Below are positions 13,239 through 60,867 of a stretch of DNA of 64,000 nt, piece by piece (the stretch's first letter is position 1; every line of letters begins with the position of its first letter). This DNA is from Spirochaetota bacterium (GTDB lineage Bacteria > Spirochaetota > Brachyspiria > Brachyspirales > JACRPF01), in NCBI GenBank assembly GCA_016214035.1, contig JACRPF010000005.1, positions 310,001 to 374,000 of the forward strand, in the 5' to 3' direction. A model generated the notes under the pieces. The model saw only the letters and a list, made by a program, of their open reading frames with translations. It had not been told where the DNA came from and made no database searches. The position numbers were made by a program, and so were the translations under genes.

Positions 13239-13353
13239 TGTCGTCGCTTTCGTGTGGTCGCCGGGTACGGCTCCGCAACGGCATCCGGCATGACTTGCGC
13301 TCTGCGTTGCGCGGCGAAGCATTCATTCTTATTTTTTGTCCGCATCCATGCGG
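13239..13353 (-). repeat. Dispersed leader element, copy C (upstream of the 3-epimerase gene)
   Basis: Read on the minus strand it has a first hairpin (CCGCATGGATGCGG), an A-rich linker with AAAAAATAAGAA, the block AACGCAGAGCGCAAG, a CATGCCGGATGCCG segment, a ~25-base insertion, and the closing block CGAAAGCGACGAC. The same order recurs at 44282-44374 and 60715-60798. It lies about 70 bases before the gene and in its sense. This is the most diverged of the three copies. Confidence 0.6.
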
Positions 13354-13392
13354 TGCTATTGTTTCCATTTTTCCTTCCTCTTTGGGGAACGA

Positions 13393-14439
13393 CTACGCCG
13401 CGTTTGGTGTGACGATGACTTTCAGTCCGCCGCGTTCTTCGTGATATGAGAATGCCGACGATATCTCATCGAGCGGAAACGTTTTTGAAATATATTTTTT
13501 CGCGCTCACGATATCCTGCGCGATGAGCGATACGGCAAGCTCATGATGCCGCGGCAGCGACCCGTGACTTCCCATCACGTAGCACTCGCGGTAGTGGATG
13601 ATATTGGAGTCGATCGAGAGCTTCGGCTGATTCTTGAGCCCGCCGAACAGGTTCACGAAACCGCGGTGGCGTATCATCTGTATCGCCGCTTCCTGCGCTT
13701 CGGTGGTGCCGGCGGTGGTTACGGCGCAATCAACGCCTTCACCGTTCGTTTCCTTCAGCACGACTGCAACCGGGTCTTCGTCGGCGCTGGCGATGAAACG
13801 CGCGTCCTCGCGGAATGTCTTCGCCATTGCAAGTCGGTTCTTCGATCGCTGTATCGCAAACACCTTTTTTGCGCCGTACATCTTTGACAGCTCGAGCATC
13901 ATGCAGCCGATGGGACCGAGTCCGATGACGGCGAGGCTTTTGCCGGGTGCGAACTGCGCGAGCTCAAGGCCGTTGATGGCGCAGGCGAGCGGTTCGGCGA
14001 TGGCAGCCTCTTCAAAGGAAAGCGAATCGGGCATCTTTGTCACCGGACCGTATTTGAGTATCGTATCGTTCAGCGTCATATATTCCTGAAAACCGCCGGC
14101 GAATTGATAGCCGATGGCATAGTTGATTGAGCAGTTCGTTCCCATGCCGTTCGCGCACCAGTAACATTCTCCGCACGGCACATCGGCACCAAGCGCTATC
14201 CGGTCGCCGACCTTCACTTTGCTTACGTTCTTCCCGACAGTGACTATCTCACCGGCTATCTCGTGTCCTATTATGGATGGATACTTTACGCGGTCGTTAC
14301 CATAATGGTAGATCCGCACATCGGAACCGCATACGGCGCAGGCTTTCACTTTCAGAATGGCTTCATTATCACCGCAGACCGGATCTGCTACGTTTTTTAT
14401 CGCTATTTTGTTCTGTGCTTCAAGAATTGCTGCTTTCAT
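13393..14439 (-). CDS. Zinc-dependent medium-chain alcohol/polyol dehydrogenase
   Basis: 348 aa. The catalytic zinc site is CAVCGSDVRIYH plus GHEIAG; the structural-zinc loop is CGECYWCANGMGTNC with four Cys. The nucleotide site is VIGLGPIGCM. The whole matches sorbitol/threonine-dehydrogenase-type MDR enzymes that oxidise a polyol or sugar alcohol with NAD(P). I placed the start at ATG 14439 behind GGGAGC; the longer frame begins in AT-rich promoter sequence. It heads the minus-strand unit with the epimerase and DeoR regulator and is divergent from another MDR dehydrogenase. Confidence 0.87.
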   Translation of the reverse strand: MKAAILEAQNKIAIKNVADPVCGDNEAILKVKACAVCGSDVRIYHYGNDRVKYPSIIGHEIAGEIVTVGKNVSKVKVGDRIALGADVPCGECYWCANGMGTNCSINYAIGYQFAGGFQEYMTLNDTILKYGPVTKMPDSLSFEEAAIAEPLACAINGLELAQFAPGKSLAVIGLGPIGCMMLELSKMYGAKKVFAIQRSKNRLAMAKTFREDARFIASADEDPVAVVLKETNGEGVDCAVTTAGTTEAQEAAIQMIRHRGFVNLFGGLKNQPKLSIDSNIIHYRECYVMGSHGSLPRHHELAVSLIAQDIVSAKKYISKTFPLDEISSAFSYHEERGGLKVIVTPNAA

Positions 14440-43432: not shown

Positions 43433-44236
43433 ATGAAAAAAGCATCGAAAAATCAGTCCGCTGACTACAAAGTCCCGAGCCTCGATCGGGCGCTCCGCAT
43501 CATTGAGCTGATAGCGGCGTCTCCGGAAGGCCTCGGGGTGAGCGAGATAACCGCGTCGCTCAAGTACCCGAAGAACAATGTATTCCGCATCGTCATGACG
43601 CTGCTCGCCAACGAATATCTTGTGCGCGACGTGAAAAGCCTCCGGTTCTCGCTGTCAAAAAAAATACTGTCACTCGGCTTCCACGCGAACGGCGGCGATA
43701 ATCTCATCGCGAACGCCATCGACATCATGAAGGACCTGCGCGACAAAACCAGGGAGACCGTACTCATCGGCAGCATGCTCGACGACATGGGTGTGGTGCT
43801 CGAGCAGATACCGGGTACGCATCATTTCAAATTTCTCATCGACGCGGGAACGATGCTTACGCTTCACACCTCGGCACCCTGCAAGGCCATCATCGCGGCA
43901 ATGCCTGCGAATGAACAGGAGCGGATGTGCCGCAGGATCACCTATAAAAAATATAACGACCATACCATCGTTACCGAGCGCGATTTTTTATCGGAACTTG
44001 CCCGCATACGGGAGAACGGGTTTGCCATCGACAACGCCGAGGAATATGACGGCGTGTCGTGCATCGGCGCGGCAGTTCTCAATCATCTCGCATATCCCGT
44101 CGGGGCGATATGGATCACCGGGCCGTCATTCCGCATCACGAAGGATGTGATGCGGGAACTCGGTCCTGTTGTCGCGGACCATGCGCAGCGTATCTCGAAA
44201 CGGCTCGGCTACGGCTATATGAAAGCGGAGGCATAG
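43433..44236 (+). CDS. IclR-family transcriptional regulator
   Basis: 267 aa. The N-terminal winged helix reads SLDRALRIIELIAASPEGLGV and the YPKNNVFRIVMTLLANEYL recognition region, then the IclR effector domain with DDMGVVLEQIPG, MLTLHTSAPCKAIIAAM, DNAEEYDGVSCIGAAV and AIWITGPSFRI. Such proteins sense small carbon metabolites. It lies upstream of and co-directional with the large redox operon, separated by ~195 bases that carry a dispersed leader element; I infer that it controls that operon. Confidence 0.88.
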   Translation: MKKASKNQSADYKVPSLDRALRIIELIAASPEGLGVSEITASLKYPKNNVFRIVMTLLANEYLVRDVKSLRFSLSKKILSLGFHANGGDNLIANAIDIMKDLRDKTRETVLIGSMLDDMGVVLEQIPGTHHFKFLIDAGTMLTLHTSAPCKAIIAAMPANEQERMCRRITYKKYNDHTIVTERDFLSELARIRENGFAIDNAEEYDGVSCIGAAVLNHLAYPVGAIWITGPSFRITKDVMRELGPVVADHAQRISKRLGYGYMKAEA

Positions 44237-44281
44237 CGCGGGTTTTCAAAAACCAAATCAGAATAGGAGATTGCAACAATG

Positions 44282-44374
44282 AACGCAAGGATGCGAGACA
44301 ATAATAGAGAGTCTATATTCTCCCGCGCTAACGCCGAGCGCAAGCGGTGCAGGAAGCACCGCGAAAGCGACAAC
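44282..44374 (+). repeat. Dispersed leader element, copy A (upstream of the HzsA-like gene)
   Basis: It has an ACGCAAGGATGCG half-hairpin, an AATAATAGA linker, AACGCCGAGCGCAAG, the hairpin GCGGTGC-AGGAA-GCACCGC (44344-44362), and GAAAGCGACAAC. In copy B the stem is GCGATGC/GCATCGC, a compensated base-pair change. The same stretch is also open in frame (NAERKRC-x2-HRESDN), as in copy B. Confidence 0.65.
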
Positions 44375-44431
44375 ATGGTTTGCGGAATAATATACGCGGG
44401 TTATGTAAATTCTGAAAAGGAGTACAATAGT

Positions 44432-47400
44432 ATGCGTCGGAACACTCTGGCACTCGTATTCTCGATTATCCTCGCAGCATCACTTCCCGCGGAAAAGTTC
44501 ATGCTCATCCCGGTGGACCCGTCGCTGAAACCGCCCGCACCGAACTCGCTTGCCGCCGTAAAAGGCAATTGGCAGGAGACGATGCTCGCCACGCGCGCGC
44601 GCATACTCGATGCGCTTGCCGCCGGACGTTCATCCTGCGTCGAAGTAGTACTCGGCGACTGGTATAGCACCGAATCGCTCGGAGTAAAGTCATTCACCAA
44701 TACGCAATTTCCCGAACCGGAACGCGAGGGCATCAATCTCGAAGCGGTCTATGATAATAATGACCCGAAGTGGACTTGCAGGTCATCGTGGATAAACCGC
44801 CCGTATAACGGACATAAGGTAAATACGAAGCAGGTGGCATATTTCTACCGCACCATCGCCGTTGACAAGCCCTGCACGCTCGATGTGTACATCGGCAAGG
44901 CGTTTGCGATTGCGCTCTGGATTAATGAACAGAAAGTCATTGAAGAAATATCTGCGAACGGCGAACTGATGGAATTGAAAACCAACATTACGCTGGAGGC
45001 GAAAACGAACACGGTGCTGCTGAAAGTGTACAATACCACCAACAAGAACGATCTTTCCATCGGTATGAACATCACCACCGGTGCGAACGCCTATAATACC
45101 GAAGCGGTCTGGCAGACAATTAAAGGTAAATATCCGCGCCTGTGTGATTATTTCGAGCGCGACCTTCCGAACGGCAGACATCTGCTCTGGCTCACATCCA
45201 CCGCAACGTCACTTGAACGCGGCGTGCTTGCGTCGGTGATGACGAATCTCGGTGACTATGACCCGCAGCTTGCGATACTGGTGGAGAAGGCGCTTCGCAA
45301 TGACAGCGCATCGGCGAAGGAACTTTTTTCGCTCTATGAACAGACCTGTTACGCGCGGGAATATCTCGACCTCGCCGCCGCTGTGGATACAACCCCGCTG
45401 CGCGCCGTACTCACCGACGTAGCATCCGTTACCGGCAGTGTGAGCGACGAATATACCGCGGCACTCAACGTTATCGACGCATCGCTCATCGCGTTGAAAA
45501 ACCGGTACCGCGCGGGCGACTATGCGCTGGTGTCGTCGCGGGCGGCGAAACCGATGGAGCTCTTCGCCGCAGATATTGCCGCTCAGAAAAATGCTCCGGT
45601 ACGCGCACGGTTTATACGCATCGAACAGCAGAACACGCTCTCGCTCGCCGAAGTGGAAGTGCAGAGCGAGGGGAAGAACATCGCGCCGCAGGGGAAAGCC
45701 TCGCAGTCGACCACGGCGAGCGGCGCCGATGCCGCGCGCGCCATCGACGGACGTACCGACGGGGCATGGAGTTCCGGCTCGGTGACGCACACCACGGAAA
45801 AAATTCCCGGCTGGTGGGAACTCGATCTCGGCGCTGAAAAGAACATCGAATCGATACGCGTGTGGAACAGGACGGACTGCTGCGGTGACCGTCTCGTGGG
45901 CGCCAATATTCAGGCACTCGGAGAAGACCGTTCGGCAGCCTGGTCACAGAAGATAGAAACGTTTTCATCCGGCGGCGGAGGCGACAAGGACGCGCTCATC
46001 AACGCATACACCGACATCCGTAAAAAGATAATGTTCCTCAATCCGCTTCTCGATTTCGACAAACTGCTCTGCATTCGTCAGCAGGGTGACCCGCGGCTTC
46101 CCGCGAACTGGCAGGGCAACTGCTCCATCGGCGGCGCCATGGGCGGAGGCCGTTCATCCGAGATAGCGATCCTTTCGCCGGTACGACCCGACGGTTCGGT
46201 GACCACACTGTATAAACCCGCATCGAATCGCGTGCTCGCCGATATCGATCTGCATTTCGACGCCGACCGCATGCTTTTCTCCATGCCCGACGACGTGAAC
46301 GCCGCATGGCAGGTGTACGAGATGGACCTTGCGTCAAAGTCGGTGCGCGTCTTAAGCAAAAGCGATTATCCCGACATTCACAATACCGAGGCATGCTATC
46401 TTCCCAGCGGAAAAATCGTGTTCGCGTCCACGCGCGTGTATGCCGGCGTTCCGTGCGTTGCGGGAGCGGACCCGGTGGCGAATCTTTTCATCATGAACGA
46501 CGACGGCAGCGGCGTGCGGCGGCTGTGTTTCGATCAGGAGCAGGACTGGAATCCCACGGTGCTCAACAACGGGAAGATCATGTACACGCGATGGGAATAC
46601 ACCGACACGGCGCATTACTTCACGCGCATCGTCATGCACATGAATCCCGACGGCACATCGCAGACGGAACTCTACGGCAGCGGCTCGTTCTGGCCCAACT
46701 CGCTGTTCTACTCGCGCCCCATACCGAATCACCCGACCATGCTCATCGGCATTGTGAGCGGGCATCACGGCGTGTCGCGCATGGGCGAACTCATACTGTA
46801 TGACCCGGCGAAGGGACGTTTCGAGGCGGACGGCGTCATACAGCGTGTCGGCGCAAAAGAAAAGAAAGTGATACCCATCATCGACGACCAGATAGTCAAC
46901 AATAGCTGGCCGAAATATCTCCACCCGTATCCGCTCAGCGATAAATATTTCATCGTCTCATCAAAACCATCACCGTCCGAATCGTGGGGCATTTATCTTG
47001 TCGATGTGCACGGCAACCGGCAGCTCATCAAGGAAGAGAAAGGCTATTCGCTTCTTGAGCCGATACCGCTCAGGAAAACTAAGAAACCGCCGGTCATACA
47101 GGACAAGATAAAGACGAACGAGACGAACGCGCTTGTGTATCTGCAGGACGTCTACACGGGCGGCGGACTGCGCGGTGTTCCGCGCGGCGAGGTGAGCAAG
47201 CTCCGGCTGTTCACCTATGTGTATACGTACAACAAGATCGGCGGACATCAGGATGTGGCGTACGAGGGCGGCTGGGAAGTGAAAGCGATACTCGGCACGG
47301 TGCCGGTGTATGAGGACGGCTCGGCGTTCTTCAGCGTTCCGGCGAACACGCCCATCGCCGTGCAGCCGCTCGACCGCGAGGGTAAGGCGCTTCAGCTCAT

Positions 47401-48919
47401 GCGAAGCTGGTTCACCGCCATGCCGGGCGAGACGCTGTCCTGCGTGGGCTGTCACGAATCGCAGAACGCGGCGACGATACCCAAACGGACGACCGCATCG
47501 CTCAAAAAGCCGGTGACGATAGACCCGTGGTACGGTCAGGCGCGCGGCTTCAGTTTTGAACGCGAGGTGCAGCCGGTGCTCGACGCATACTGCGTGGGCT
47601 GCCATAATGGAACAAAGACGAATATCCCGAACTTCACGTTCAGGAAAGGGAATTTCATCAATAACTTTCCCGAGTCATACAACGAACTGCATCCGTATGT
47701 CTGGCGGCCGGGCCCCGAGAGTGATTATCATCTGCCGGAACCGTTGGAATATCATGCGGACGTGAGCGAGCTTGTGCAGAAACTGAAGAAAGGACATCAC
47801 GGTGTGACGCTTGACGCCGAGGGATGGGAACGCATCATCACGTGGATAGACCTCAACGTACCGTGCATCGGTTCGTGGATGGAATACCGGGCGTCGGTCT
47901 CGAATTTCTACGAGAAACGCCAGGCGATGCTTGCGCAGTATACGAGCTGCAGTGTGGACTATGAAAAGATAATCAATCCGTATGCGATGCGGAATTTCAT
48001 CTCACCATCACCGCCGCCGGAAATGCTTCCCGCTCCCGCAGTGCAGCGATGGCCGCTTTCCCGGAACGAAGCGGCAGAGCTTCAGAAGAACGCGGGACAG
48101 AACAGGACGAAAACGGTGGATCTCGGCAACGGCGTAACGATGACGCTGGTGCTCATACCGCAGGGGACATACCGCATGGGCGGAGAATCCGGCGAGCGGA
48201 ATAAAGAGGTACAGCGGCAAGTGACCGTTTCAAACGCGTTCTGGATGGCGGAGACCGAAGTGACGCTGGCGCAGTATCATGCGTTCGACCCATCGCACGA
48301 GAACGGCTATATCGATCAGCAGTCGAAGGATCACACGACGCGCGGTTACGACGCGAACGACCCTAGGCATCCGGTGATACGCGTCTCATATGAGGAGGCG
48401 ACTAAGTTCTGTGAATGGCTTTCTCAGAAGGCGGGTGTGCCGGTGATGCTGCCGAGCGAAGAGGAATGGGAGTGGGCCTGCCGTGCGGGTACCGATACGC
48501 CGTTCTTTTTCGGTGATGTGAACATGGATTTCTCGCCGTATGCGAATCTCGCCGACAAATCGGTGTCGCTACTCGCCGTGCAGGGTGTAAATCCGAAACC
48601 GATACGCAATCCGAACAAGTACGTGGATTTCATCCCCAAAGACGCGCGGTTCAACGACGCCAATAAGATACTTTCGCTCACGGGCATCTATAAACCGAAT
48701 CCGTGGGGGCTTAAGGACATGCACGGCAATGTGGCGGAATGGACACGTTCTGATTTTACCGGTTTTATCGATGTCGGCGGCAACAGCGTTTTCAAGACCG
48801 TTCGCGGCGGCTCCTGGCGCGACAGACCGTATCGTGCGACGTCGTTCTTCAGAATGGGATACCGTCCGTATCAGCGCGTGTTCAATGTCGGCTTCCGTGT
48901 CGCCGCGGCTCTGCACTAG
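44432..48919 (+). CDS. Large secreted multidomain protein: F5/8C + HzsA-like propeller + dihaem cytochrome + FGE-fold
   Basis: 1495 aa. The signal peptide (ALVFSIILAASLPA) is followed by an N-terminal beta/helical region, an F5/8 type C domain (about 392-510: ARFIRIEQQ, AARAIDGRTDGAW, WWELDLG), and an HzsA-related propeller (about 540-990; IHNTEACYLPSGKIVFASTR, DWNPTVLNNGKIMYTRWEY). Two c-haem motifs follow: CVGCH (1004-1008) and CVGCH (1054-1058). An FGE-sulfatase fold closes it (about 1235-1495; LIPQGTYRMGG, LPSEEEWEWACRAGT, TVRGGSW), without the catalytic Cys pair. Such giant proteins occur in PVC bacteria; the reaction is unknown. ATG 44432 follows AAAAGGAG. First gene of a five-gene redox operon. 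Confidence 0.82.
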   Translation: MRRNTLALVFSIILAASLPAEKFMLIPVDPSLKPPAPNSLAAVKGNWQETMLATRARILDALAAGRSSCVEVVLGDWYSTESLGVKSFTNTQFPEPEREGINLEAVYDNNDPKWTCRSSWINRPYNGHKVNTKQVAYFYRTIAVDKPCTLDVYIGKAFAIALWINEQKVIEEISANGELMELKTNITLEAKTNTVLLKVYNTTNKNDLSIGMNITTGANAYNTEAVWQTIKGKYPRLCDYFERDLPNGRHLLWLTSTATSLERGVLASVMTNLGDYDPQLAILVEKALRNDSASAKELFSLYEQTCYAREYLDLAAAVDTTPLRAVLTDVASVTGSVSDEYTAALNVIDASLIALKNRYRAGDYALVSSRAAKPMELFAADIAAQKNAPVRARFIRIEQQNTLSLAEVEVQSEGKNIAPQGKASQSTTASGADAARAIDGRTDGAWSSGSVTHTTEKIPGWWELDLGAEKNIESIRVWNRTDCCGDRLVGANIQALGEDRSAAWSQKIETFSSGGGGDKDALINAYTDIRKKIMFLNPLLDFDKLLCIRQQGDPRLPANWQGNCSIGGAMGGGRSSEIAILSPVRPDGSVTTLYKPASNRVLADIDLHFDADRMLFSMPDDVNAAWQVYEMDLASKSVRVLSKSDYPDIHNTEACYLPSGKIVFASTRVYAGVPCVAGADPVANLFIMNDDGSGVRRLCFDQEQDWNPTVLNNGKIMYTRWEYTDTAHYFTRIVMHMNPDGTSQTELYGSGSFWPNSLFYSRPIPNHPTMLIGIVSGHHGVSRMGELILYDPAKGRFEADGVIQRVGAKEKKVIPIIDDQIVNNSWPKYLHPYPLSDKYFIVSSKPSPSESWGIYLVDVHGNRQLIKEEKGYSLLEPIPLRKTKKPPVIQDKIKTNETNALVYLQDVYTGGGLRGVPRGEVSKLRLFTYVYTYNKIGGHQDVAYEGGWEVKAILGTVPVYEDGSAFFSVPANTPIAVQPLDREGKALQLMRSWFTAMPGETLSCVGCHESQNAATIPKRTTASLKKPVTIDPWYGQARGFSFEREVQPVLDAYCVGCHNGTKTNIPNFTFRKGNFINNFPESYNELHPYVWRPGPESDYHLPEPLEYHADVSELVQKLKKGHHGVTLDAEGWERIITWIDLNVPCIGSWMEYRASVSNFYEKRQAMLAQYTSCSVDYEKIINPYAMRNFISPSPPPEMLPAPAVQRWPLSRNEAAELQKNAGQNRTKTVDLGNGVTMTLVLIPQGTYRMGGESGERNKEVQRQVTVSNAFWMAETEVTLAQYHAFDPSHENGYIDQQSKDHTTRGYDANDPRHPVIRVSYEEATKFCEWLSQKAGVPVMLPSEEEWEWACRAGTDTPFFFGDVNMDFSPYANLADKSVSLLAVQGVNPKPIRNPNKYVDFIPKDARFNDANKILSLTGIYKPNPWGLKDMHGNVAEWTRSDFTGFIDVGGNSVFKTVRGGSWRDRPYRATSFFRMGYRPYQRVFNVGFRVAAALH

Positions 48920-60690: not shown

Positions 60691-60714
60691 AATGCTAAAT
60701 GCCCTCCGGATATT

Positions 60715-60798
60715 GTTGTCGCTTTCGCGATGCGTCCGGCATCGCTTGCGCTCGGCGCTCGTTCGGGAGTTTTTTCTTATTCCGCACATCCATGTGCG
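60715..60798 (-). repeat. Dispersed leader element, copy B (upstream of htpG)
   Basis: On the minus strand it has the hairpin CGCACATGGATGTGCGG, AATAAGAAAAAA, AGCGCCGAGCGCAAG, the second hairpin GCGATGC-CGGAC-GCATCGC (60727-60745), and GAAAGCGACAAC. It lies 25 bases before the htpG start and beyond the groES terminator, so it should be in the htpG leader. Confidence 0.7.
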
Positions 60799-60867
60799 TG
60801 TCCTTCCCGAGCTGCATGTTTATTTTCTATTATTGCCAATACATAGATCCCGAACGATCGATAAAAA

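Follow-up and report, generated by a model that had tools for sequence, protein, structure and literature searches.

An apparently lineage-specific family of folded repeats at stop codons of a spirochaete genome, probably non-autonomous miniature insertion elements

Three copies of a folded repeat lie at gene borders in the window, the whole stretch of 64,000 nucleotides of the spirochaete contig JACRPF010000005.1 that was analysed here. Copy A overlaps the last codons and the stop of a dehydrogenase gene, copy B begins on the stop of an IclR-family gene, and copy C lies between the groES terminator and htpG. The genes that follow are unrelated, as the first-pass annotation of this DNA had stated: rpe lies downstream of copy A, a giant HZS_alpha/FGE-sulfatase protein downstream of copy B and htpG downstream of copy C. 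A covariance model, R1, for which 20 genome copies including A, B and C served as the training set, matches copy A at 13239-13357 on the minus strand (54.6 bits), copy B at 44279-44375 on the plus strand (93.9 bits) and copy C at 60714-60801 on the minus strand (88.3 bits); in the rest of the window it found no fourth match above 13 bits, the next best scoring 12.6 bits. The core pattern GAGCGCAAG-N8..38-GAAAGCGAC, which is independent of the model, matches twice in the window against 0.00 expected, and 21 times in the whole genome against 0 for the reversed control. Model scores and core pattern thus bear out the three copies at the places first reported.

At full length the element measures about 190 bp and is composed, in order, of the 5' strand of a helix termed P1, hairpin 1, the P1 3' strand, hairpin 2 and a tail. 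P1, which was found by printing the flanks of the copies, is a closing helix (TAGCGCGGG/CCCGCGCTA) around hairpin 1 only. Its 5' arm spans about 36 or 47 nt before hairpin 1, which divides the copies into two classes, and about 20 nt separate hairpin 1 from the P1 3' strand. Hairpin 2, placed 2-5 nt 3' of P1, is framed by the conserved blocks AGCGCMAG and GARAGCGAC, and the tail extends for ~49 nt after GARAGCGAC, its end being estimated from the offset at which direct repeats begin. The core originally described is therefore real, but that description lacked the 5' part of P1 and the tail. The loop contains GGA in 160 of 177 hairpins, over 66 different stem sequences; the other 17 loops, mostly in hairpin 1, carry CGA. 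The parts of the three window copies are as follows:

44234..44242, plus strand: copy B, P1 5' strand TAGCGCGGG, whose TAG is the stop of the upstream IclR-family gene (43433-44236)
44284..44295, plus strand: copy B, hairpin 1 (CGCAAGGATGCG), loop with GGA
44322..44330, plus strand: copy B, P1 3' strand CCCGCGCTA
44336..44371, plus strand: copy B, GAGCGCAAG, hairpin 2 and GAAAGCGAC
44344-44362, plus strand: copy B, hairpin 2, GCGGTGC-AGGAA-GCACCGC
44372..44424, plus strand: copy B, predicted tail, running about 49 nt beyond the model match to where the element should finish, as inferred from the direct-repeat offsets of other copies
60805..60812, minus strand: copy C, variant P1 5' strand GCTCGGGA, 3' of the groES terminator, as read by eye
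60783..60798, minus strand: copy C, hairpin 1 (CGCACATGGATGTGCG)
60757..60768, minus strand: copy C, P1 3' strand TCCCGAACGAGC
60718..60753, minus strand: copy C, GAGCGCAAG, hairpin 2 (GCGATGC-CGGAC-GCATCGC) and GAAAGCGAC
60690: start of htpG, downstream of copy C
13393..13404, minus strand: copy A, P1 5' strand AACGCGGCG, lying in the final codons of the dehydrogenase gene upstream, and after it the stop TAG of that gene (13393-13395)
13340..13353, minus strand: copy A, hairpin 1 (CCGCATGGATGCGG)
13310..13316, minus strand: copy A, P1 3' strand CGCCGCG
13253..13302, minus strand: copy A, GAGCGCAAG (13294-13302) and a long second-hairpin region (13253-13293)
13243..13251, minus strand: copy A, closing GAAAGCGAC

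The second-hairpin region of copy A is 41 nt long (13253-13293) and does not form a simple helix, a variant that recurs in about ten copies elsewhere in the genome. Copies in which this long form (GCCGGATGCCGTTGCGGAGCCGTACTCGGCGACCACG) was noted are L096, L117, L120, L123, L124, L125 (window copy A), L129, L131, L134 and L135. The compensated change GCGGTGC/GCACCGC versus GCGATGC/GCATCGC, which had been placed in copies A and B, actually distinguishes copy B (44 kb) from copy C (60 kb). Some copies elsewhere in the genome contain one or two further inserted GGA-loop hairpins (L127, L122, L126, L129, L133, L134, L136, L137, L140, L141 and L115). These extra hairpins lie between the position of hairpin 2 and the closing block, in a modular arrangement that resembles the boxB modules of BOX elements. 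The giant protein encoded 3' of copy B (44432-48919) carries HZS_alpha (hydrazine synthase alpha middle), F5/8 type C and FGE-sulfatase domains, and its open reading frame stays open upstream to 44279, through copy B. The idea that the core encodes a conserved peptide (AERKRCRKHRESDN-like in copies B and C) was rejected, since indels, stop codons and the compensated stem changes ignore the frame.

A covariance-model search of the genome and its relatives, which the first-pass annotation had proposed, recovered about 90 copies in the genome itself and two in one relative. Over the 5.2 Mb genome, R1 yielded 94 matches at E <= 1 and 90 at E < 0.001, which were fetched and then aligned; a looser form of the core pattern gave 60 genome matches, 60/60 of them already in the R1 list. 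Among 60 relatives searched, the element occurs in one, of the same family and another genus, with its 2 copies, and in a sample of 393 genomes across the phylum the same two genomes alone carry it, with none in the 391 others. Rfam returned nothing but tRNAs for the window and 11 copy-bearing loci at gathering and permissive thresholds, a pattern scan of viral contigs gave no match, and a BLAST search of plasmids and phages with a multi-hairpin copy produced only weak short matches. In a pattern scan of all contigs, the matches listed include single ones in many mostly GC-rich genomes, and these look like chance. Arrays of GGA hairpins, sought by pattern in 15 other genomes, were mostly no commoner than the reversed control, and a limited literature search found no description of a stop-codon-anchored repeat in spirochaetes. 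These searches indicate that the family is new and confined to a lineage represented by its own genome and one relative.

The predicted fold is strongly supported by covariation. In an alignment of 59 sequences (A5), on which all covariation counts are based, changes on both sides were found in 9 of 10 pairs of P1 and in 6 of 7 pairs of hairpin 2, and double-change cells numbered 156 against 37.9 +/- 6.1 after shuffling, with all slid-register controls far below the true register. P1 and both hairpins therefore covary strongly, and the structure and covariation claimed at the outset are upheld. Selection on the sense RNA should make one-sided departures from pairing favour G-U over A-C. In A5, G-T departures number 11 and A-C departures 18, and in the 177 hairpins counted without preference the figures are 13 and 29 (p = 0.02, in the opposite direction). 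Without a G-U excess, the constraint looks less like RNA folding than like Watson-Crick pairing of DNA or the correction of palindromes. This points to stems that act as DNA-level hairpins, the counts being modest and thus an argument rather than proof. The predominance of A-C over G-T departures (29 versus 13) is what folding of the complementary strand would give.

Placement relative to genes was assessed with a simple codon-usage gene finder trained on this genome. Both neighbouring genes are in the sense of the element at 49 copies, divergent at 15, both antisense at 14 and convergent at 12. The orientation claimed to be always that of the downstream gene thus holds for copies A, B and C, but genome-wide it holds for only 64 of 90 copies, the next gene of the other 26 lying on the opposite strand. 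Counted from P1 as its start, the element begins within 15 nt of a same-sense upstream stop at 46 of 89 copies, whereas a simulation of random intergenic placement on the gaps of the window gave 4.1 (p about 4e-37). Spacing to the downstream start is scattered. At 20 copies P1 opens with the stop codon as its first three bases, and the closing triplet changes with it: TAG/CTA in 13, TAA/TTA in 4, TAA/TTG in 1 and TGA/TCA in 2. The upstream stop codon therefore anchors about half of the copies. Just 3 of the 42 unanchored copies follow intrinsic terminators, and a replication-strand preference, sought through GC skew, had no consistent sign. The P1 5' strand is unlikely to be, in general, a target sequence that existed before the element, because gene ends reading TAGCGCGG would occur by chance about once per genome (a rough estimate) and because orthologous gene ends in the relative read differently.

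Dispersal of the copies, element-free orthologous gene ends and flanking repeats together support the view that the element is mobile. In the relative G001, a different genus, for which comparison of filled and empty sites is limited to gene ends, the orthologues of the upstream genes stop at about the same codon and then run into unrelated sequence that lacks the element. Direct repeats matching their own locus occur 49-52 nt behind the core at about a dozen copies, examples being CATAACGCGG at L084 and, at L108, GTCCTAGCGCG, of which GTCC belongs to the gene. Among these repeats, at least those at L081 and L107 are tandem second copies and not target duplications. Seven copies have repeats scoring >=10 compared with 0.8 expected from cross-locus pairs. 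Full-length identity between any two copies reaches at most 88%, so the copies are old and have not moved recently. The genome contains three Y1 transposase genes, one of them RAYT-like; none of the three is flanked by element copies in RAYT fashion, and two have no copy nearby. At the Y1-transposase-like gene L112:1858-2443 (C12), a single divergent copy lies at the very start and appears to have cost the gene its first codons. The RAYT-like gene, L142:1984-2583 (C8), has no element copy nearby.

The nearest kind among known repeats is YPAL, also called RU-2, a Yersinia palindromic sequence of about 168 bp with internal inverted repeats, no A+T richness, variable target duplications of 3-26 bp and linkage to upstream genes (PMC2229807, PMC2759123). 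The spirochaete element resembles it in length, in inverted repeats that are internal and not terminal, in not being A+T rich and in its link to the upstream gene; beside the variable duplications of YPAL, about a dozen copies here have locus-specific direct repeats, and some copies are tandem. When folded, the published RU-2 sequence forms a pair of hairpins with GGA in the loop (CGCGCCAAGGATGGCGCG and TACATGGATGTA). GGA also occupies both loops of a YPAL copy carried by an E. coli plasmid (L302:1201-1364). That copy matches the Rfam family Ysr224 at 72.4 bits on the opposite strand, whereas the spirochaete element does not match Ysr224, and the two share no sequence or covariance homology. 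They also differ in build, as P1 encloses hairpin 1 only, whereas YPAL is one long stem around both hairpins. The YPAL descriptions do not state exact siting at the stop codon or a stop that covaries inside a helix (PMC2229807, PMC2759123). The spirochaete element thus works like YPAL and is not a member of that family.

Other hairpin repeats share fewer traits. REPs are also high-copy intergenic hairpins with compensated stems, which are recognised by loop and stem in the form of single-stranded DNA (PMC8266576), and in E. coli some are found no further than 15 nt from a stop codon (PMC12306157). They are, however, single hairpins of 20-40 nt with a GTAG-type head that flank their own rayt gene (PMC2817692, PMC3733652), whereas the present element is ~190 nt long, has several hairpins and does not occur as copies on both flanks of any Y1 gene. 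Nor does A5 contain a foot tetranucleotide of the GTAG/GGAG type, the conserved feet being AGCGCMAG and GARAGCGAC. BOX of Streptococcus is likewise modular, dispersed and folded, with fixed ends enclosing middle modules that vary in number (PMC3049150); it differs in its terminal inverted repeats, and no sequence relation was seen. The TwoAYGGAY motif (Rfam; PMC2864571) should, to go by its name, have two AYGGAY-loop hairpins; its Rfam covariance model did not match the element up to E = 5. As in IS200/IS605 elements, a sequence 5' of a hairpin, here the P1 3' strand 5' of hairpin 2, is complementary to the left-end flank. IS200/IS605 insertion is not known to produce a target duplication, whereas direct repeats are present at some copies of the element. 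The guide of IS200/IS605 is also a tetranucleotide (PMC8266576), whereas the complementarity here extends over 8-10 nt.

The genome thus holds dispersed copies with a covarying fold, sense orientation, stop-codon siting and, in some cases, direct repeats. We regard these as probable YPAL/REP-type insertion elements, miniature and non-autonomous, present in ~90 lineage-specific copies and co-transcribed with the upstream gene. Such elements would spread as folded single-stranded DNA through an enzyme acting in trans that reads the perfect GGA-loop hairpins. This is inferred from the TnpA-REP and IS200/IS605 enzymes, which handle such hairpins, recognising them through loop and stem while a short sequence 5' of the hairpin sets the site (PMC8266576). 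Insertions would survive, or be aimed, at gene ends, where a folded 3' UTR is added and the protein is left undamaged. Within the shared transcript, P1 could form only once the terminating ribosome has left, and the element is therefore likely to influence how stable the upstream message is or how it terminates. An influence on that message is also suggested by analogy with REPs, which stall ribosomes where the stop codon is no more than 15 nt away (PMC12306157), and with ERIC and its destabilising action on upstream transcripts (PMC2229807). A more specific version, which we regard as rather doubtful, takes P1 less as a structure than as a guide-target match in which the internal CCCGCGCTA-type sequence beside hairpin 2 pairs with the insertion site and aims the element at gene ends. 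The guide of each copy would then fit its own stop and flank (TAG/CTA, TAA/TTA or TGA/TCA), and the element would be a miniature, structure-based system programmable for stop codons.

The most serious alternative, though an unlikely one, is a regulatory RNA acting on the sense strand: one dispersed module in ~90 messages whose GGA-loop hairpins, with ANGGAU and NGGAN as candidate loops, bind CsrA or another RNA-binding protein. CsrA is a dimer, which matches the two hairpins per element. The genome has one complete csrA gene, the element runs in the sense of the upstream gene, and the retention of GGA in most loops over so many stem sequences is what such binding would favour. The CGA loops, mostly of hairpin 1, do not fit, nor do stems without a G-U excess over A-C, and the conservation of AGCGCMAG and GARAGCGAC outside the hairpins goes unexplained. 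Blocking of ribosome sites would not be general, given the scattered distances to downstream starts. CsrA may possibly bind RNA of the element as a secondary use. The mRNA leader put forward by the first-pass annotation, a riboswitch-like cis-regulator of the downstream gene, has very little in its favour. All three window copies do precede a same-sense gene, as do most copies genome-wide, but the next genes on the other strand, the unrelated identity of the downstream genes and a spacing fixed at the upstream stop and not at the downstream start all argue against it. The same-sense excess is nearly accounted for by upstream anchoring and operon structure: where the upstream gene is in sense, 49 of 61 copies also have a same-sense downstream gene, so that the predicted enrichment of same-sense leaders exists but only slightly exceeds the background of same-strand neighbours (36/53 in the window). 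The other suggestion made there, a directional mobile RNA element, fares better in two of its three terms. In same-strand gaps, 49 copies are sense and 14 antisense (p = 1e-5), and mobility is borne out by the dispersed copies, the element-free gene ends of the relative and the flanking direct repeats, but the absence of a G-U excess in the stems speaks against RNA.

Two further explanations operate at the DNA level. Palindromes might be kept perfect by mutation alone, through template-switch correction of imperfect inverted repeats in elements that are otherwise inert debris. Almost no one-sided changes and no wobble excess are seen, and the stems remain perfect where tails and linkers decay, as this mechanism would have it. 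Conservation extends, however, to loops and single-stranded blocks, which is beyond palindrome correction, and the P1 arms lie about 80-100 nt apart; we therefore hold the explanation to be improbable. It is highly improbable that the element is an attC-like site-specific recombination site belonging to an integron, or to an integrase, that acts at gene ends. In favour of this are a folded site at stop codons, the sense orientation and the direct repeats at some copies, but the copies are scattered rather than gathered in cassette arrays, and the conserved genes beside them have orthologues in the relative without such a site.

Small folded repeats are known in enterobacteria, pneumococci and other bacteria, some of them near stops. 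The family described here adds one whose host is probably an uncultured spirochaete lineage, and in which the stop codon of many unrelated genes is itself part of a covarying helix, an unusual form of anchoring. Within this one family it becomes testable whether elements are aimed at gene ends or merely survive there, and whether the upstream message is affected by a structure that must await the departure of the ribosome from the stop. That YPAL of Yersinia, though unrelated, is built on GGA-loop hairpins too hints at a common mode of recognition, and the YPAL copy on the E. coli plasmid suggests that GGA-loop hairpin repeats are a design common across phyla.
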